Assembly: GCF_025151535.1 (NCBI RefSeq)
Contig: NZ_CP102288.1
Location: 687,501-751,500 of the forward strand
Direction: 5' to 3'
DNA: 64,000 bases
From: Segatella copri DSM 18205
GTDB lineage: Bacteria > Bacteroidota > Bacteroidia > Bacteroidales > Bacteroidaceae
Shown here: one piece after another, positions 48,933 through 57,918 of the stretch
How positions within the stretch are numbered: the stretch's first letter is position 1
Layout of the letters: each line of letters opens with the position of its first letter
The notes under the pieces: generated by a model
Database searches by the model: none
The model's input: only the letters and a program-made list of their open reading frames with translations
Told to the model about the DNA's origin: nothing
Made by a program: the position numbers and the translations under genes

Positions 48933-49009
48933 ATGCAAATATCTTTCAGAATATTTGTTAGTTTCAATTCTTTTTCGTATTTTTGCGGTGTAATAAAAAT
49001 GATAGTGTT

Positions 49010-49348
49010 ATGACGACAATAACAAGGGAACATCTTGAAGATGAGGTACTCAAGTCGATTCAGAAGAAAGCGGAGTCGATTATGCCGAAAGATGCCAAGG
49101 TTATCCTTTTCGGGTCAAGGGCTAGAAGGGATGCTAAAGCAGATTCCGACTGGGACATCCTTGTGCTTTTGAACAAGGATAAGATAGATGAGCAGGATCA
49201 TGATAATTACACCTATCCTCTTTGGGAATTGGGATGGCAAATCAATCAGATGATTCACCCGATAGTGTATTCGATGAAGGATTGGAACTGCAAAAAGGGT
49301 AGTCCCTTTTATAATAATGTAGAAGAGGAAGGGGTGATGCTATGCTAG
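49010..49348 (+). CDS. MNT-like nucleotidyltransferase domain protein
   Basis: Starting at 49010 (MTTITREHLEDEVLKSIQKK) behind a TATTTTTGC -7 box gives 112 residues. The MNT motif is KVILFGSRARRDAKADSDWD, giving GSxxR and two catalytic aspartates (DSDWDILV). This is the family of MNT-HEPN toxin-antitoxin antitoxins, which AMPylate HEPN toxins, but other roles exist. The partner gene begins inside its end (49342). Confidence 0.8.
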   Translation: MTTITREHLEDEVLKSIQKKAESIMPKDAKVILFGSRARRDAKADSDWDILVLLNKDKIDEQDHDNYTYPLWELGWQINQMIHPIVYSMKDWNCKKGSPFYNNVEEEGVMLC

Positions 49349-49780: not shown

Positions 49781-49830
49781 ACATGAGTATAAAATGCCTG
49801 GTTAAGAAGTAAATCATTGAACTTTTGCAT

Positions 49831-49930
49831 GTGGTTCAAGCACGGGCTGAAGGCCCAAAAGCTCCTAGCCCAGGGCAACACCCTGGGTATTAAGATGTTG
49901 TATCCCTGCGCCCTGTAAGGGCAAAAGCCT
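49831..49930 (+). repeat. Three-hairpin intergenic repeat, copy B
   Basis: GTGGTTCAAG, then GGGCTGAAGGCCC, AGCTCCTAGCCCAGGGCAAC, CCCTGGGT and GCCCTGTAAGGGCAAAAGC. It matches copy C in reverse orientation over nearly the whole length. Confidence 0.8.
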
Positions 49931-49977
49931 TGAATATATGCTGCTTTATAACCGATTTTATTGTGATTTGCAAGAAA

Positions 49978-50171: not shown

Positions 50172-50282
50172 AATAACCTCCTTTTTAATGTTATTGTTAT
50201 TAATTTGGTGGCAAAGATAAGAAAAGTAAATGAGATATGCAAGAAAAAAGACCCAAAATTTTGTGAACCCAATTCTTTTTCG

Positions 50283-50290
50283 TACTTTTG
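50283..50290 (+). promoter_or_regulatory. Promoter of the restriction-like operon leader
   Basis: TACTTTTG with following CAG (50283-50293) is a -7-type element. It predicts a transcript start near 50297 and therefore a leader of ~490 nt before the methyltransferase start at 50788. Confidence 0.5.
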
Positions 50291-50296
50291 CAGTTG

Positions 50297-50787
50297 TCTT
50301 GCTGTGGATGGCTGGCGATGAGTCGCTGGCTAGGTAAAATCCATGGCTTGGCCTATCATAATTAAGAAAGACGTTCTCTACGTTTTCTTCTGACCTATTG
50401 AAATCTGGTAAATTACAAAAGGTGTTCAGAGGGAGACAGCAGTGGGCGTCTACCCACTGTGTATATACACATGGCATAGGTGTGCCCCTTCGTCTGGAGG
50501 GGGTACGCTCTGTGCTATCATATATATACCCGCTTGGCGTAGGCTCTATTGCTTCTTATCCTTGACACCAGGGTTTTACCAGAACCTCAATAGGCAAGGA
50601 TTATGCGAGTGATAGATTCCCTACGCCTTCCTTTTTGATAGCTAATCAGTTATCCTATTCCTTATCTTACGATGAGGCTGGACTAGAATCAAAATAATCT
50701 TTTAAAATCAGATGGTTTCTGCTTTCGGGAATCGGTGGAGTAATAGGATGGCAAGGCTTTGCTATGCTCCCATCGGCAACGGAAGTT
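50297..50787 (+). ncRNA. Large folded leader RNA of the methyltransferase operon
   Basis: No ORF of note fits here, but the + strand has dense pairing. CAGTGGG 50440-50446 pairs with CCCACTG 50453-50459. GTATATA 50461-50467 pairs with 50522-50528, ATGGCATAG 50471-50479 with CTGTGCTAT 50510-50518, and GTGTGCCCC 50480-50488 with GGGGTACGC around 50500-50508, forming one long hairpin. Further on, CGTAGG (50538-50543) pairs with CCTACG (50619-50624), and CTATTG/CAATAG and ATCCTTG/CAAGGAT pair in crossing order, a pseudoknot. It could be a regulatory leader or an RNA component of the system. Confidence 0.45.
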
Positions 50788-53544
50788 ATGGCAAAGAAAC
50801 AGCAACTCAGCTATAAGGAAATCGAATCCCGATTAGAATCGTTTAAAACTAAAGTGGTGCCAGCCTCTGAGGTTGGCTATGAGATACTGAAGGCTTTTGG
50901 TAAAAGCGAAAAGGATGTGTCGAGATACAAGGAAGGAAAGGGTGTCTTGAAGACATTCGACGGCTTGCTTATCAAAGGCTTGTTCTGCTATCAGGCTGTA
51001 GATACTTTGCATCTTACCACCAGGTTGGAGGCATTGAAGACCGATGCTCAGGTAAAGAAGGCTGCACCAAAGATTATTGCGGTGAGCGATGGTGAAATCC
51101 TCCTTGCTTGTGATACTCGTGAGAATGATACTTACGAGCAGAAACTCGTCAAGATGCACAGCGACTTTGGCTTCTTCTATCCTTTGATGAATGTTGAGCG
51201 AGTACACACTACGGCAGAAAACCCTGCCGATGTGAAGGCTGCTGAGAAACTTGCCAAGCTGCATGATGAGATTCGTGCTTATAACGAATATAATAGTGAT
51301 GACGACTTGCACGACCTCAATATCTTCATTACCCGCCTGCTCTTCTGTTTCTTTGCCGAAGACACAGGTATCTTTGCCGAAAATCTCTTTACCAACTTTA
51401 TCAAGCAATTTACCAAGGAAGATGGTTCCGATCTCGGCGAGATGCTAGGTCAGGCATTCCAGGTGATGAATGTGCCAAACAAGGAGCGTTCGGAAGAACT
51501 TACCAAGGAAATCAATCAGTTTCCTTACGTGAATGGCGGTCTTTTTGCCTCTGACATTCCTATCCCAAAGATGGGTTATAAGGCTAGAAAGATTATCATC
51601 GAATGCGGCGACTTGGATTGGAAGGACATCAATCCGGATATTTTCGGTAGTATGATTCAGGCGGTGGTGAATCCTGATGTGCGTGCCAAGGAGGGTATGC
51701 ACTACACCAGTGTGCCTAATATCATGAAGGTAATCAATCCGCTCTTTATGGATGATTTGAGAGGGGAATATAAGAAACTGGAAGAGTTTTACGAACAGAA
51801 GAAGAACCTGCTTGATATGAGTGCCTTGTCTCAAAATCAGTTTATTGACGAGTGCAAACCAATCATTAATGGTTGCAATAAGTTGATGGTAAGAATGAGC
51901 AAGATGAAGTTCTTTGACCCAGCTTGTGGTAGTGGTAATTTCCTGATTATCACTTATAAGCAGTTGCGCTTGCTCGAAATGGATATTCTGCATCTCCGCA
52001 AGAAATGTACGCCTGAGCAGATGCTCGACTTTATTGATGGTTCGTGCATCCGTTTGGAGCAGTTCTTTGGAATAGAACTTCTCGACTTCCCTCACGAGGT
52101 AGCCATGCTTTCGCTCTGGCTTGCTGAGCATCAGATGAACAACAAGTTTCACGCCGATTTTGGTGTGAATGTTGCTGCCTTGCCTTTGCATAATATCAAC
52201 CAGATAAAATGTGGTAATGCCTGTAGAATGGATTGGGAGGTAGTATGCCCACATACCAAGGATGAAGAAGTGTTTGTATTTGGAAATCCGCCGTATTTGG
52301 GGAGTAAATTACAAACCAAGGAGCAGAAAGAAGATATAAGTTATGTCTTTGGTAAATTAAAGAATAGTAAGATACTGGATTATATCACAATTTGGTTCTA
52401 TTTGGGAGCAAAATATATTCATGAATCCAAAGCCAAGTACGCTTATGTGAGTACAAACTCAATATGCCAAGGAGAACAAGTATCTGTGCTTTGGCCTCAA
52501 ATTTTGAAAATGAATGAAGAAATAGCTTTTGCTTATACTTCTTTCAAATGGACCAATAATGCAAAATATAATGCCGGTGTTACTGTTGTGATTGTTGGGG
52601 TGTTCAATAAGAGTAATAATAAGAAACTATTGTTTACCTCCGACAAACAAATAGAATCTTCTGTGATAAATCCTTATTTATCTGTAGGAACAGAAACGAT
52701 AGTATATAAGGATGTTCATACACCTGATGGCTATCCGAAATTATGCTTTGGCTGCATGCCTTATGATAATGGTAACTTGTTGTTTAACAAAGTTGAATAT
52801 GAAGATTTTATAGCCAAATATTCATCATTCTCTAAGTATTTGCGAATGATGTATGGTTCTGAAGAATTTATAAATGGGAAGCCTAGATACTGTTTGTGGA
52901 TAGACGAACAGGATGCTGATGAGGCATTGAAAAATGAAGAAATTGCAAGGCGTGTAGAAAGAACTAAAGAACTTCGGTTGGATAGTACTGATGCTGCTTG
53001 TTTGAAATTGGCAGAAAAACCTTATCAGTTTAGAGAGCATCCGATATTAGATAGAGACAAGATTATCATTCCTCGTGTATCGTCTGAAAGGCGAAAGTAC
53101 ATTCCTATGGGATTTTTGGACAAAGGAACTGTTATTTCAGATTCAGCTTTCGCTATCTATGACGCATCACTATGGCTCTTTGGCTTTCTTACCAGCGAGA
53201 TGCACATGGTGTGGGTTAGAACAGTAGGAGGCAGATTAAAGACTGATTACAGATATTCCGCAGGTCTCTGTTACAACACTTTCCCCTTCCCATCCATCTC
53301 CGACACCAAGAAGTCTGAGATAGAAGAGGCGGCAACGAATGTGCTTCTGGCTCGTGAAAACTATCCAGAGAAGACGCTTGCAGATCTTTACGACCCGGAA
53401 AAGATGCCGGAGGATTTGCGTACTGCACATGAGGAACTGGATGCCATCGTAGAAAGCTGCTATCCTGGCGCTCCGTTCCCAAATGATGAGGCTCGATTGG
53501 AATGCCTCTTCAAACTCTATGAGAAAATGACAGCTAACAAGTAA
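50788..53544 (+). CDS. MmeI-like class I DNA adenine methyltransferase
   Basis: Starting at 50788 (MAKKQQLSYKEIESRLESFK) gives 918 residues. The layout matches MmeI-like proteins: N-terminal domain (about 1-150), helical spacer, methyltransferase core with motif I FFDPACGSGNFLII and motif IV FGNPPYLGS (N6-adenine type), then target recognition region (EEFINGKPRYCLWID, later IIPRVSSERRKYIPM) and the C-terminal helix with PEKTLADLYDPEKMPEDL. I see no PD-(D/E)xK motif in the N-terminal part, so it may only methylate. A helicase and a GIY-YIG protein follow. Confidence 0.85.
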   Translation: MAKKQQLSYKEIESRLESFKTKVVPASEVGYEILKAFGKSEKDVSRYKEGKGVLKTFDGLLIKGLFCYQAVDTLHLTTRLEALKTDAQVKKAAPKIIAVSDGEILLACDTRENDTYEQKLVKMHSDFGFFYPLMNVERVHTTAENPADVKAAEKLAKLHDEIRAYNEYNSDDDLHDLNIFITRLLFCFFAEDTGIFAENLFTNFIKQFTKEDGSDLGEMLGQAFQVMNVPNKERSEELTKEINQFPYVNGGLFASDIPIPKMGYKARKIIIECGDLDWKDINPDIFGSMIQAVVNPDVRAKEGMHYTSVPNIMKVINPLFMDDLRGEYKKLEEFYEQKKNLLDMSALSQNQFIDECKPIINGCNKLMVRMSKMKFFDPACGSGNFLIITYKQLRLLEMDILHLRKKCTPEQMLDFIDGSCIRLEQFFGIELLDFPHEVAMLSLWLAEHQMNNKFHADFGVNVAALPLHNINQIKCGNACRMDWEVVCPHTKDEEVFVFGNPPYLGSKLQTKEQKEDISYVFGKLKNSKILDYITIWFYLGAKYIHESKAKYAYVSTNSICQGEQVSVLWPQILKMNEEIAFAYTSFKWTNNAKYNAGVTVVIVGVFNKSNNKKLLFTSDKQIESSVINPYLSVGTETIVYKDVHTPDGYPKLCFGCMPYDNGNLLFNKVEYEDFIAKYSSFSKYLRMMYGSEEFINGKPRYCLWIDEQDADEALKNEEIARRVERTKELRLDSTDAACLKLAEKPYQFREHPILDRDKIIIPRVSSERRKYIPMGFLDKGTVISDSAFAIYDASLWLFGFLTSEMHMVWVRTVGGRLKTDYRYSAGLCYNTFPFPSISDTKKSEIEEAATNVLLARENYPEKTLADLYDPEKMPEDLRTAHEELDAIVESCYPGAPFPNDEARLECLFKLYEKMTANK

Positions 53545-53559
53545 TAATTTGAATGGCTT

Positions 53560-55608
53560 ATGAACAAGATAAATGATAATATCGTTGATATTTCGTATCA
53601 GCAAACGGGTAAATCGAGTAATACGAATGAACTCGGTATGAGAGAGATGCAAGCCAAGGCTTACGAAGTCCGCAACCATCGCTTTCTGCTTATCAAGGCG
53701 CCACCTGCATCTGGCAAGAGTCGCGCCTTGATGTTCATCGCCCTGGATAAGCTGAAGAATCAGGGCATCAAGAAGGTTGTAGTGGCTGTACCGGAAAAGA
53801 GTATCGGCCGCTCCTTCCAAAACACCGACCTGATGAAGTATGGCTTCTTCGCCGATTGGAGGGTGGCGCAACAGTATAATCTTTGCGATAATAATCTTTG
53901 CGATACTACCGACGAGAAAGTTAAGGCGGTACGCTTTAAAAATTTCTTCCATCAAGATAAAAACAATATCCTGGTTTGCGCCCATGCTACCCTCAGAAAC
54001 GGCATGAAGGAAATAAGTGACGAGGAGTTTAATGATTGCCTCTTGGCGATAGATGAGTTCCATCATACTAGTGCTGATGTGAACAGCGGATTGGGCGATA
54101 TTGTGCGCCGGGTGATGAATAATTCCACCGGTCATATTGTTGCCATGACGGGCAGTTACTTCCGTGGCGATGGCGTTCCGGTGTTGAGGGCAGAGGATGA
54201 GGCCCGTTTCTTCCCGGTAACCTACAACTATTATCAGCAACTCAACGGTTATCGCTATCTCAAGAACCTTGTCCTGGGCTATCACTTCTATCACGGCAGT
54301 TATCTCGACCATATCGCCGAGGTGCTGGATACTACCAAGAAGACCATCATCCATATTCCGAGTGTCAACTCCCGAGCATCCAGCGGTTTGGGTAAATACA
54401 CGGAGGTGGATGAAATCATCAAGATTATCGGTAAGGTAGAGGAACGGGATTACAACAATGGCGGCATCTATCACATCAGAACCAAGGACGGCAGACTACT
54501 GAAGGTTGCCGATCTGGTGGAAGACCACGCCGAGACCCGCAATCTGGTGCAGGGATATTTGCAGCGGATAAAGAAGCGTGATGATGTAGATATTATCATC
54601 GCTCTGGGTACTGCCAAGGAAGGTTTCGACTGGCAATGGTGTGAGGAATGTCTGACCATCGGTGTGCGTGGCTCGCTGACCGAAGTGGTGCAGATTATCG
54701 GAAGATGCACCCGTGATTGCGAAGGCAAGGAAACCGCCAAGTTTGTGAACATGATAGGAATGCCTGATGCCAATCAGCCCGATGTGAAGGTGGCGGTGAA
54801 CGACTTTCTGAAAGCCATTACCGCATCGCTTCTGATGGAGCAGGTGATGGCGCCTAGTTGGCATTTCAAGACGGTGAAGGATGTGGATAGTGATGAGGGT
54901 AGTCCGTTGGATGCCCGTACCCTGGTGATAGAGGGCTTGAAACCTTTGTCGAGCGAGAAGACGAAGATGATTGTAGAGGAGCAGTTGGATGATTTGAAGG
55001 CTTCTATCTTGCAAGACGAACTGGTGGTGAAAGCCATCAGCGGAAGTACTACGGCTGAAACCATCACCAAAACGCTCATTCCGAAAGTGATTCGTGAAAA
55101 GTATCCGGATTTGAGCGAGGACGAAGTGGAAGAAGTTCGTCAGCGCCTGCTGCTTGATACCCTTGTCAAGGGTGGTGAAGTGGTGGATGATAAGGGAAAT
55201 CCTATCGATTTCGATGCTTCGGCAAACGATGAGGAGAAGGAGTCGGAAGGCAATCGCCTCATCAAACTGGCAAACCGAATGATTAACATCGACCAGTTGA
55301 GCATCAATCTGATTGATTCCATCAATCCTTTCCAGCGTGCTTACGAAGTGTTGTCGAAGAATGTGGATAAACAGACCCTGAAGATTATCCAGGACACGAT
55401 GGCTGAACAGAAATTCGATATGACCATCGAACAGGCGATGATGCTGTTCAAGGGGCCCTATAAGCGATGGGTGGCAGAGCATGACGGTCTGCGCCCAGAC
55501 ATCAATGACCCTGATCCGAAGGTAAGGGAACTGGCTGCTGCATTCCAGAAACTCAAGAACCTGAAGATTCGAAAGATGATGGGATTGGAGTATGAGCCGG
55601 AAAAGTAA
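53560..55608 (+). CDS. DEAD/DEAH-type SF2 helicase of a restriction-like system
   Basis: The 682-residue protein starts 15 bp after the methyltransferase. SF2 motifs are LIKAPPASGKSRALMF (Walker A), LLAIDEFHHTS (motif II), VAMTGSYFRGD (motif III) and VVQIIGRCTRD (motif VI). A long C-terminal part (about 430-682) has no recognised domain. It probably translocates on DNA and couples recognition to the nuclease encoded next. Confidence 0.85.
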   Translation: MNKINDNIVDISYQQTGKSSNTNELGMREMQAKAYEVRNHRFLLIKAPPASGKSRALMFIALDKLKNQGIKKVVVAVPEKSIGRSFQNTDLMKYGFFADWRVAQQYNLCDNNLCDTTDEKVKAVRFKNFFHQDKNNILVCAHATLRNGMKEISDEEFNDCLLAIDEFHHTSADVNSGLGDIVRRVMNNSTGHIVAMTGSYFRGDGVPVLRAEDEARFFPVTYNYYQQLNGYRYLKNLVLGYHFYHGSYLDHIAEVLDTTKKTIIHIPSVNSRASSGLGKYTEVDEIIKIIGKVEERDYNNGGIYHIRTKDGRLLKVADLVEDHAETRNLVQGYLQRIKKRDDVDIIIALGTAKEGFDWQWCEECLTIGVRGSLTEVVQIIGRCTRDCEGKETAKFVNMIGMPDANQPDVKVAVNDFLKAITASLLMEQVMAPSWHFKTVKDVDSDEGSPLDARTLVIEGLKPLSSEKTKMIVEEQLDDLKASILQDELVVKAISGSTTAETITKTLIPKVIREKYPDLSEDEVEEVRQRLLLDTLVKGGEVVDDKGNPIDFDASANDEEKESEGNRLIKLANRMINIDQLSINLIDSINPFQRAYEVLSKNVDKQTLKIIQDTMAEQKFDMTIEQAMMLFKGPYKRWVAEHDGLRPDINDPDPKVRELAAAFQKLKNLKIRKMMGLEYEPEK

Positions 55609-55626
55609 CATTTAACATTAACATAA

Positions 55627-55887
55627 ATGGATTGGCCAGAAGAATTATTAGAGATATTTGATGACCCCTTGTTGGCGGATGTACGTCCGAAACCGAAGGC
55701 ACCGACGCCCGATGACAGGCTGGCACAGAAATTGCTTGAAATCAACAAGTGGGTGGCAGAGCATGGTAGCGAACCTACAGCTGACGGTGGCTTGAAAGAA
55801 AAGTTGCTTGCTGCATCGCTCAAGGCTCTGCGAACCAAGGCAACAGATAGCCTCAGACAGTATGATGAGTATCATCTGTTGGGATAG
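55627..55887 (+). CDS. Small protein sharing the N-terminal motif of the GIY-YIG gene
   Basis: The 86-residue product (MDWPEELLEIFDDPLLADVR, then PTPDDRLAQKLLEINKWVAEHGSEP read in parts) has the same N-terminal pattern as the next protein: EL-x-(E/D)-IF-x-DPL-x-x-V. Its helical part resembles the N-terminal region of longer GIY-YIG/T5orf172 proteins in other bacteria, so here that region appears to be a separate gene. It lies 18 bp after the helicase. Confidence 0.7.
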   Translation: MDWPEELLEIFDDPLLADVRPKPKAPTPDDRLAQKLLEINKWVAEHGSEPTADGGLKEKLLAASLKALRTKATDSLRQYDEYHLLG

Positions 55888-55920
55888 GCTATAGTTTTTC
55901 ACCTTATTATATATAGTGAT

Positions 55921-57153
55921 ATGGATATTGATAAAGAATTAGAAGATATATTCAGCGATCCCTTGATGGATGTTTCCTATCAGGAGGCAAAACTCTTCGA
56001 TGTGCCTGCCGACATGAAAGGCGTAATGGCTCAGAAGAAGGATGCGCCCGACCATGTGGCGCAAAGAAAACTGTGTGAGAATTTCGCACAGTTTAAGCCG
56101 CTCTTCGAACAGGTGCATCAGGATTTGAAGACCGGTAAGCGACAGTTGCAGAGAATCTCGAAGACGACGAGCTTATTGGCTGGACGCTATTATCTTGTAG
56201 ATGGTCAGATGGTTTTGTTATATGAGATTATTGAGAAGAAAAAGGGTACTAATGGTTTGCCCGATGGCAGAACCCGTTGTATCTATGAAAATGGTACGGA
56301 GTCGGATATCTATCTCCAGACACTTCGCAAGAGTGTGGTGGCAAGTGGTTATGCCATCACCGAAACTCTGGAGGAGACGGATGCTCATTTCTTCAATCCT
56401 GAGGATGTGAAGCAGGAAGACCAGGTGACGGGTTATATCTACGTGCTTCGTTCGAAATCAGAGAATCCGGAAATTCGTAACATCAAGAATCTCTATAAAA
56501 TAGGTTTCTCTACGAATCGGGTGGAGGAGCGTGTGGCAAATGCCGAGCATGAGCCTACTTATCTGATGGCACCTGTAGAGATAGTAAGCACTTACAAGAT
56601 AGTGAACATGCACTCTCAGAAGTTTGAGGACCTGGTGCATCAGGTGTTGCAGACGGTGAACTTCCGTTTTAAGGTGGCTGATGATAAGGGAGAGATGCAT
56701 GAGGCTACGGAATGGTATCAGGTTCCGCTGGAAATCATCGACAGTATCATTCAGAAAATCATGAATGGCACTATCATCTACTTTGCCTACAATAAGGAAC
56801 AGCAATGTCTGGAGCAGCGGATAGAGAAAAAGCCATCGCAGTTAAATCTGTCGGGCTTGAAGGTTTTGACGCTGATTATCGAGAAACAGTATTTCGAGGA
56901 GATTGTATCTGGTGTGAAGACCGAGGAGTACCGTTCGCTGAAGCAGACCACGCTTAACAAATATACTTATATTGATGAGGCTGATGGCAAGCGTTATCTC
57001 CGTCGTTTCGATGCGATAAGGTTTTATGTGGGTTATCATTCGGATAGGGATAGTGCCGTGGTTCAGGTATTGGACACCACCTATGAGGATGGCTTGGTAA
57101 CTTATCATCTCGGAAAGGTATTGGAGGTGATAAGGGGAAAGGAAAATAAATAA
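55921..57153 (+). CDS. GIY-YIG (T5orf172) nuclease with C-terminal ASCH domain
   Basis: The 410-residue protein has the short N-terminal motif ELEDIFSDPLMDV, an all-alpha linker (about 40-120), a GIY-YIG domain of the T5orf172/MUG113 type (GYIYVLRSKSENPEIR, then NLYKIGFSTNRVEERVANAE; about 165-260) and an ASCH/PUA-like domain at the end (LNLSGLKVLTLIIEKQYFEE, later YHLGKVLEVI; about 300-405). The nuclease and RNA/base-binding domains suggest the effector of the operon. A terminator follows at 57172-57200. Confidence 0.8.
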   Translation: MDIDKELEDIFSDPLMDVSYQEAKLFDVPADMKGVMAQKKDAPDHVAQRKLCENFAQFKPLFEQVHQDLKTGKRQLQRISKTTSLLAGRYYLVDGQMVLLYEIIEKKKGTNGLPDGRTRCIYENGTESDIYLQTLRKSVVASGYAITETLEETDAHFFNPEDVKQEDQVTGYIYVLRSKSENPEIRNIKNLYKIGFSTNRVEERVANAEHEPTYLMAPVEIVSTYKIVNMHSQKFEDLVHQVLQTVNFRFKVADDKGEMHEATEWYQVPLEIIDSIIQKIMNGTIIYFAYNKEQQCLEQRIEKKPSQLNLSGLKVLTLIIEKQYFEEIVSGVKTEEYRSLKQTTLNKYTYIDEADGKRYLRRFDAIRFYVGYHSDRDSAVVQVLDTTYEDGLVTYHLGKVLEVIRGKENK

Positions 57154-57171
57154 AATAGTTGAAAACCAATA

Positions 57172-57200
57172 GTTTAAGGTCACAAATTGTGACCTTAAAC
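57172..57200 (+). terminator. Near-perfect palindromic terminator of the restriction-like operon
   Basis: GTTTAAGGTCACAA (57172-57185) is followed, after one base, by its complement (57187-57200). The almost loop-free 29-bp palindrome would form a hairpin with a minimal loop; a weak T-rich stretch follows. Confidence 0.6.
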
Positions 57201-57236
57201 GCTATTTCTATGTGTTCTAATATAGAGTGTTATACG

Positions 57237-57335
57237 AAGCTTTTGCCCTTACAGGGCGCATTGCTGACTGCGAGTGTACCCAGGGCGATGCCCTGGGCTA
57301 GGAGCTTTTGGGCTTTCAGCCCGTTCTTGAACCAC
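57237..57335 (-). repeat. Three-hairpin intergenic repeat, copy C
   Basis: In reverse orientation this carries GGGCTGAAAGCCC, AGCTCCTAGCCCAGGGC and GCCCTGTAAGGGC, closely matching copy B. It lies between the terminator of the restriction-like operon and the toxin-antitoxin genes. Confidence 0.8.
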
Positions 57336-57411
57336 CTGCAATGTCCTATATGTTAGACCTTTCGAGTATTGTGCGCATAGCACGATAGCGAGAATAATTT
57401 TGGTATTGCTT

Positions 57412-57588: not shown

Positions 57589-57918
57589 TTATAGTTTTCT
57601 TTTGAATTGTCTAATCAGATATCTAGGACTTCTTCTCATATCCCATAAATCTACGAAAATGACGAGGTCGTTGGCTTCGTCGTAGCGATAGATAATCTTC
57701 CAATTCTCCTTGATAATTGCACTATGGTAAGGACGGTGGAATCGCTTAAGCATAGGCTCTCTGGGTGAAGAAAGAGGATGTTTGCTAAGTCTGTTTATTA
57801 TTGCTTGCAAGCTTTCGTCAAATCTTTGAACGCAAAGTCGACCAAAGTTTTGATAACTATAGTCGGTTGTTTCTTTATAAATTTGAAGAAAGCTATTGCG
57901 TAGTGTTACTTTAGCCAT
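57589..57918 (-). CDS. ParE/RelE-superfamily toxin
   Basis: The 109-residue product reads MAKVTLRNSFLQIYKETTDY, with HPLSSPREPMLKRFHRPYHS and ENWKIIYRYDEANDLVIFVD, ending in LWDMRRSPRYLIRQF. This is the ParE/RelE fold pattern. It overlaps the antitoxin by 13 bp. The target (gyrase or ribosome) cannot be told from sequence. Confidence 0.8.
   Translation of the reverse strand: MAKVTLRNSFLQIYKETTDYSYQNFGRLCVQRFDESLQAIINRLSKHPLSSPREPMLKRFHRPYHSAIIKENWKIIYRYDEANDLVIFVDLWDMRRSPRYLIRQFKRKL

Follow-up and report, generated by a model that had tools for sequence, protein, structure and literature searches.

A DnmA-YeeB-YeeC operon with a divided YeeC in Segatella copri and the structured leader RNA upstream of it

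Described systems and the layout of the operon

The closest described counterpart of the operon reported here is the dnmA-yeeB-yeeC set of Bacillus subtilis, which encodes an MmeI-like m6A methyltransferase without a nuclease motif, an SF2 helicase and a T5orf172 protein (PMC9973331, PMC7261158). According to the available text of these two papers, the gene order is conserved in other bacteria, the set had been noted earlier by Morgan and others in 2009, and it has been suggested to form a 'Type I-like' restriction-modification (R-M) system. Loss of the dnmA or yeeB homologues of Vibrio crassostreae led to higher sensitivity to some phages, as told in the available text of PMC9973331. Deletion of dnmA, yeeB or yeeC in B. 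subtilis left the sensitivity to three tested phages unchanged, deletion of dnmA left plasmid uptake unchanged, and the term used by the authors is relic (PMC9973331, PMC7261158, available text). The nuclease site of MmeI itself has been placed at V69-D70...E80-M81-K82 in the accessible part of PMC4833311. Among the newer literature listed, no further study of the dnmA-yeeB-yeeC set was recognised.

The operon of Segatella copri DSM 18205 lies in a 64,000-nt stretch of contig NZ_CP102288.1 (positions 687,501 to 751,500), which is referred to here as the window. It consists of a strongly folded leader and, after it, four ORFs on the forward strand that are separated by 15, 18 and 33 nt. A preliminary description, made from the letters alone, had reported four tightly packed genes with gaps of 15-33 bp and a large folded leader, and both are real by the ORF coordinates and the folding score of the leader. 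The features are as follows.

50260..50290, forward strand: putative promoter of Bacteroidota type, read from the sequence (TTTG at 50260-50263, a 19-nt spacer and TACTTTTG at 50283-50290)
50296..50763, forward strand: strongly folded leader of 468 nt (folding z -6.2)
50368..50600, forward strand: likely divergent member, with an enlarged apical arm, of the RNA family of models R1 and R2 (R2 match of 40.3 bits)
50536..50636, forward strand: terminator-like element of putative function, in which GGCGTAGG (50536-50543) can pair with CCTACGCC (50620-50627), followed by TTCCTTTTT
50764..53544, forward strand: N6-adenine methyltransferase of 926 aa, DnmA/YeeA-type (MmeI family), without PD-ExK (Pfam, PDB, motifs)
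53560..55608, forward strand: SF2 helicase of 682 aa, YeeB-type (ResIII, DEAD, motifs)
55627..55887, forward strand: protein of 86 aa, the detached N-terminal domain of YeeC (fused in nine loci)
55921..57153, forward strand: GIY-YIG (T5orf172) protein of 410 aa, YeeC-type (T5orf172 at 1.3e-15)
57172..57200, no strand assigned: palindrome on the downstream side of the operon (reverse-complement self-match 96.6%)

The TTTG at 50260-50263 is taken here to be the upstream box of a Bacteroidota-type promoter. The start previously given for the operon, 50283, is the first base of the -7 box TACTTTTG, for which a Bacteroidota consensus is given in the available text of PMC9723704. The palindrome at the other end had been called a terminator; the palindrome stands at 57172-57200, no long U-tract follows it, and it is at most a candidate terminator. 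An inverted pair of an intergenic repeat (49825-49936 and 57231-57341) flanks the operon. A transposon bounded by these two copies was considered and rejected, since 67 matches to the repeat occur across the genome and it is not specific to the operon. A small nucleotidyltransferase gene (48983-49348) lies upstream of the operon and a ParE-type toxin gene (57589-57918) downstream.

The proteins and conservation of the cassette

The 926-aa protein contains all five MmeI domains of Pfam (MmeI_N, hel, Mtase, TRD and C), aligns over residues 102-924 with MmeI in PDB 5hr4 (E 1.4e-178) and carries the motifs FDPACGSGNF and NPPY. Its recognition loop shows K-T-D at the aligned place of E-S-R in MmeI, from which a recognition site that ends in AG may be predicted. 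PADLOC assigned it to REase_MTase_IIG (Type IIG) with 1000 bits. The aligned ExK is missing from 16 of 16 helicase-linked methyltransferases, that of the window included. MmeI_N relatives of the same class, chosen by family match alone irrespective of their gene neighbours, have D...(I/V)E-x-KS at one aligned place in 10 of 10 readable sequences (of 23 loci from the MmeI_N search, 13 were dropped for wrong frame or strand or for lack of a reading), and the window protein has GLFCYQA where these relatives have (I/V)E-x-KS. The earlier observation that the N-terminal part of the methyltransferase holds no PD-(D/E)xK motif was thus borne out. The MmeI_N family was found in 25 of 198 genomes of the class and, among 14 control genomes, in B. 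subtilis only, which agrees with the presence of DnmA in that organism.

The 682-aa helicase matched ResIII (1.2e-08) and DEAD (2.6e-07) in Pfam and carries the motifs SGKS, DEFH and QIIGRCTRD; no PDB relative was found at E up to 0.1. The 410-aa protein matched T5orf172 (GIY-YIG) at residues 171-280 (1.3e-15) and also MUG113, and no PDB relative was found at E up to 1. Invariant in 21 aligned GIY-YIG sequences are G171, Y174, Y192-KIGF, R204, E236, H240 and E264-W265. The C-terminal domain of this protein (residues about 300-404) is optional, the part past residue 380 being matched in 26 of 50 loci. It had been labelled ASCH; Pfam gave no ASCH match, and residues 314-383 matched only phrog_625, a family of unknown function, so that the label is at best putative.

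The 86-aa protein gave no Pfam match, and its PDB matches were at E 0.058 or worse. Blast searches revealed nine loci in which a single ORF matches the 86-aa protein near its N-terminus and the GIY-YIG protein after it. From these fusions the 86-aa protein was identified as the split-off N-terminal domain of YeeC, and it is not the separate operon component for which it had been taken. At 11 further loci the GIY-YIG match begins 95-121 residues further in than in the window, behind an extension without a Blast match to the 86-aa protein. The two counterparts are separate ORFs at 30 loci, mostly those of relatives of the window but also on plasmids of Proteus and Acinetobacter; as read from these ORFs, the split of YeeC occurs in two distant groups.

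The window therefore holds a PD-ExK-less MmeI-type methyltransferase, an SF2 helicase directly 3' of it and a T5orf172/GIY-YIG protein 3' of the helicase, the features by which DnmA-YeeB-YeeC is recognised. The cassette is DnmA-YeeB-YeeC, here with YeeC split in two. The preliminary description knew of no named system with exactly this gene set and proposed a novel R-M or modification-dependent system. An R-M-like operon was confirmed, and the novelty was not: the set is in print as dnmA-yeeB-yeeC, in the available text of PMC7261158 and PMC9973331, which rules out a new defence system. These publications also supply in part the prior characterisation of the cassette that the same description had listed as evidence against its proposal. 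Other candidates were rejected as well. Classical Type I R-M and BREX were dropped after defence-system family searches with the four proteins. DISARM was rejected on the PADLOC results, in which DrmA, DrmB and DrmC were absent; the only DISARM-type matches were one to DrmD (13 bits) and those of the methyltransferase to DrmMI, which reached no more than 91 bits where REase_MTase_IIG scored 1000.

The four proteins were also compared by Blast with the ORFs of 53 loci and the window, and 51 helicase places were counted. The GIY-YIG gene adjoins the helicase gene at 50 of these 51 places and is fused with it into one ORF at the other (L067). A methyltransferase ORF or piece lies at most 4.5 kb upstream of the helicase at 42 of the 43 places with more than 3 kb of upstream sequence, the exception being L058, and several of the 42 matches are fragments (for example L004, L064 and L067). 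These loci are not independent, as 20 were obtained with the GIY-YIG query, L012 and L071 have the same matches and L066 and L067 belong to one genome; when only L048-L080 are counted, the 33 loci that the helicase query returned, 32 have the GIY-YIG gene beside the helicase gene and one has the two fused. The gene order is kept across loci of Bacteroidota, Bacillota, Actinomycetota and Pseudomonadota.

Among genomes, the helicase was found in 9 of 395 of the phylum and in 20 of 349 of the family, both counts including the own genome. Among 72,556 plasmid records, 261 match it, and 116 of these are predicted to be conjugative. Only two partial matches were found among 50,697 phage records. All three genes occur in nine of nine plasmid regions that were opened, with the methyltransferase cut or in pieces in three. 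In these plasmid loci (L051, L054 and L056) the helicase gene and the GIY-YIG gene appear complete. Some loci have a broken or partial methyltransferase (L009, L078). The fused ORF of L067 (7971-10403) encodes 810 aa and joins helicase residues 6-533 to the GIY-YIG protein; the methyltransferase of this locus was matched only as a small piece, and the locus has kept the leader RNA. Other ORFs often lie between methyltransferase and helicase (L002, L005, L007, L008, L010, L013, L017 and L020), many of them on the opposite strand and toxin-antitoxin, PIN or Abi-like by reading. The operon apparently serves as a landing site for small defence genes.

Two other readings of the cassette bear on these data. 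A relic, the conclusion drawn for B. subtilis in the available text of PMC9973331 and PMC7261158, would leave an orphan methyltransferase that marks DNA and tunes expression, beside a helicase and a GIY-YIG protein that no longer restrict. For the window this appears unlikely, as all its ORFs are intact with conserved motifs, and the retention of the order in four phyla, with many loci on plasmids, argues for use. Less probable still is a modification-dependent system, in which helicase and GIY-YIG protein would attack foreign-marked DNA and the C-terminal domain would read the modified base. Such a role would suit the optional domain of 26 of the 50 loci if it were ASCH, as once read, but Pfam gave no ASCH match, and 42 of 43 loci hold at least a piece of a methyltransferase ORF, as self-marking would lead one to expect.

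The leader RNA and the genes downstream of it

The 468-nt leader folds at -176 kcal/mol, compared with a mean of -133.8 kcal/mol for 100 shuffled sequences (z -6.2). Regions of 470 nt upstream of homologous methyltransferases gave z below -4 in 15 of 23 cases, window included, with 20 shuffles each. Nine leaders were aligned by their helices (L072, with its inner helix in another register, was left out of this first alignment); 95.8% of the cells pair, and the covariation score is 0.602, compared with 0.233 for shuffled and at most 0.139 for slid controls. In a search of 45 sources, model R1 recovered 12 cassette leaders with E below 1e-14, among them the nine on which it was trained. Of 201 family genomes, 83 also gave R1 matches (E up to 0.01), and the idea of a leader private to the window operon was rejected on this account.

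An alignment of 93 R1 matches has 93.4% of its cells paired, double changes at 51 of 55 pairs and 1163 double-change cells in all. Its covariation score is 0.580, against 0.184 for shuffled and at most 0.109 for slid controls, in an alignment that was fitted to the model, which raises the score, and that includes one reverse-strand match of an L002 copy already in it. The family folds into a small hairpin followed by two long helices, between which lies a conserved AA/RCC internal loop; after these come a lopsided loop and an inner arm, the strands of which contain GATAA/TTATC and GGGC. A conserved, covarying RNA family is well supported by these comparisons.

Model R2, built from the 93 matches without the window leader, found 50368-50600 in a search of the whole genome (40.3 bits, E 6.5e-6). 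With filters off it gave a local match at 50396-50592 (29.4 bits) that includes the AA/ACC loop, and one control stretch of equal size reached at most 2.7 bits. The R1 search and R2 with default filters both missed the window leader, the latter probably because of the enlarged apical arm. The window leader is thus likely, not certainly, a divergent member of the R1/R2 family. The leaders of L008 (3840-4340, z -5.7) and L012 (1100-1600, z -10.0) also have strong folds and reached only 7-12 bits with R2; possibly they are a further type with another inner arm. An element elsewhere in the genome (2268161-2268263) is 76% identical to the window leader over 104 nt and precedes a methyltransferase ORF that is EcoRI-type by reading; R2 does not have it in its list. 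A DNA search with the leader in 150 genomes of the genus returned the own genome and one weak match only. R2 matches occur in 21 of 247 genomes of the phylum, own genome included (E up to 1e-4). The window contains a second copy of the RNA at 1507-1641 (R2, 36 bits, E 1.5e-5), and some 80 nt behind it begins an ORF without a Pfam match (1723-2448). This copy is absent from the whole-genome list.

The family is apparently undescribed. Rfam 15 gave no family at gathering score at the leaders of the window and 26 loci; matches in evalue mode were weak, that of the window leader being mir-500 at 20 bits against a cut-off of 78. No description of the leader RNA was found among the titles listed on structured RNAs, riboswitches and attenuation in Bacteroidota. 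The main text of the microbiome RNA catalogue PMC8040213, as far as accessible, does not mention methyltransferase or restriction, and its supplementary tables may hold the RNA under a number. About 50 covarying pairs, an occurrence in 83 of 201 family and 21 of 247 phylum genomes and no Rfam match amount to an annotation gap in itself.

Downstream DNA was retrieved for 80 of the listed R1 matches, mostly the better-scoring ones, and the first ORF of at least 110 aa was taken. Two copies without such an ORF were dropped, leaving 78. Among the first 25 of 63 Pfam families listed for these ORFs were EcoRI_methylase (11), N6_Mtase (11), Eco57I (9), SNF2 (9), HsdM_N (7), D12 (3), N6_N4_Mtase (3), WYL (3) and BspA-type LRR (2). 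PADLOC pointed the same way. Simple methyltransferase or helicase motifs occur in 42 of the 78 ORFs and in 2 of 72 control genes (Fisher p 4e-13), a sample biased toward R-M, since methyltransferase leaders were the source of R1 and preference was given to copies with better scores, and a control that consists of any gene in 14 stretches across the own genome and not of leader-preceded genes. The control genes gave few R-M matches by Pfam or PADLOC.

Eleven elements of the own genome were looked at. An R-M or helicase gene is next to the window leader, L123 (SNF2), L124 (Mod-like), and L092 and L212 (EcoRI type), where L092 is included by DNA similarity only, L212 stands at E 0.64 and several gene types are by reading. 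Four others (L207-L210) stand before genes for secreted or lipoprotein-like products, no gene is near L211, and the copy at 1507-1641 precedes the Pfam-less ORF. Outside the family, R-M motifs were found in 0 of 29 first downstream ORFs. A crude signal-peptide test was passed by 20 of these 29 ORFs in other families, by 16 of 78 in the family sample and by 26 of 72 control genes. At L254, L257, L259, L261, L265, L266, L275 and L281, all from other Bacteroidota families, the RNA was seen 220-400 nt before ORFs of about 1000 aa that are SusC/RagA-like receptors by reading. A leader tied to R-M genes only was rejected, in view of the secreted-gene targets in the own genome and the 0 of 29 in other families. 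With 42 of 78 in one family and 0 of 29 elsewhere, the RNA is a general Bacteroidota leader that R-M genes in one family often use.

Of 92 matches, 75 have a U-tract no more than 75 nt downstream of the outer helix, compared with 267 of 1210 control windows. The 3' strand of P2 can pair with downstream sequence in a locus-specific way (mean of 7.03 pairs at its own locus, 5.90 when swapped, 6.14 as the highest of 30 shuffles). U-tract and alternative pairing together fit a fold that competes with a terminator, as in an attenuator or riboswitch, and suggest that the 3' part of the leader is a transcription attenuator. That the target genes are unrelated argues for a general signal. The element may instead be a trans-acting small RNA, a processive antitermination element or single-stranded DNA, to which an appreciable though lesser probability is given: terminator-like ends would also release a free RNA, and a general element for antitermination or recruitment would suit unrelated downstream genes with different needs. 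In 53 of the 78 copies, however, the first long ORF begins 55-125 nt behind the matched RNA, which suggests a role in cis, and in 8 of 10 copies the fold of the reverse strand is the weaker one, which favours an RNA of the matched strand.

With some reserve, we lean to an undescribed, phylum-wide, cis-acting and attenuator-like leader RNA. It would be a standard leader of R-M and defence operons in the Prevotella-containing family, with MmeI-, EcoRI-, HsdM-, D12-, Mod- and C5-type methyltransferases and SNF2 helicases, and would control TonB-receptor-like and surface genes elsewhere. If this is true, a single RNA control is common to R-M systems that are otherwise unrelated. How R-M systems enter a new cell without killing the host is an old question, and a leader RNA shared by many unrelated methyltransferase genes would be a common control point.

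The operon as a whole is probably best explained as a DnmA-YeeB-YeeC restriction-like system with a split YeeC and an attenuating, conserved leader. One transcript would start behind the promoter and carry the leader RNA at its head, and the leader would probably switch between its family-specific fold and a U-tract terminator hairpin, setting how much of the transcript runs on into the genes. The MmeI-type protein would read an asymmetric site and methylate one adenine, so that host sites are marked. On unmodified DNA it would recruit the YeeB helicase, which may move along or open the DNA and bring in YeeC, whose GIY-YIG domain would cut. Although detached, the 86-residue domain probably continues to dock with YeeC or YeeB. 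Cutting by the GIY-YIG protein, as proposed at the outset, is the most plausible reading, and the helicase may well link the two enzymes, as was also suggested then. The window operon may function in phage defence.

Comparison with known systems

Flavo-1 and Bacteroid-trp are Rfam families. The leaders reported here share with these structured 5' leaders of Bacteroidota a conserved fold upstream of genes (PMC9723704, PMC6414381, available text). They are set apart by the Rfam scans, in which no family reached its gathering score at these leaders and in which copies of Flavo-1 or Bacteroid-trp would be expected to show.

MmeI, a Type IIL R-M enzyme (PDB 5hr4), has the methyltransferase, helical spacer, target recognition and C-terminal domains in common with the window protein. 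It carries an N-terminal PD-(D/E)xK site on its own chain, whereas the window protein is without the V-D...E-x-K. Type I R-M systems (HsdRMS) resemble the operon in that the methylating and helicase parts are separate. They have HsdS, unlike the window, where neither the HsdS specificity subunit nor HsdR was among the families of the four proteins and the likely nuclease is a GIY-YIG domain on a protein of its own.

Since dnmA-yeeB-yeeC is in print, the cassette is not a new defence system, and this part of the work mainly corrects the record: the system is the known DnmA-YeeB-YeeC and the small extra gene is a split domain. The operon shares with B. subtilis DnmA(YeeA)-YeeB-YeeC the three protein types, the gene order and the direction, a likeness drawn from the published description and not from aligned sequences. 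It differs in having YeeC as an 86-aa and a 410-aa protein, an extra C-terminal domain and a long structured leader RNA.
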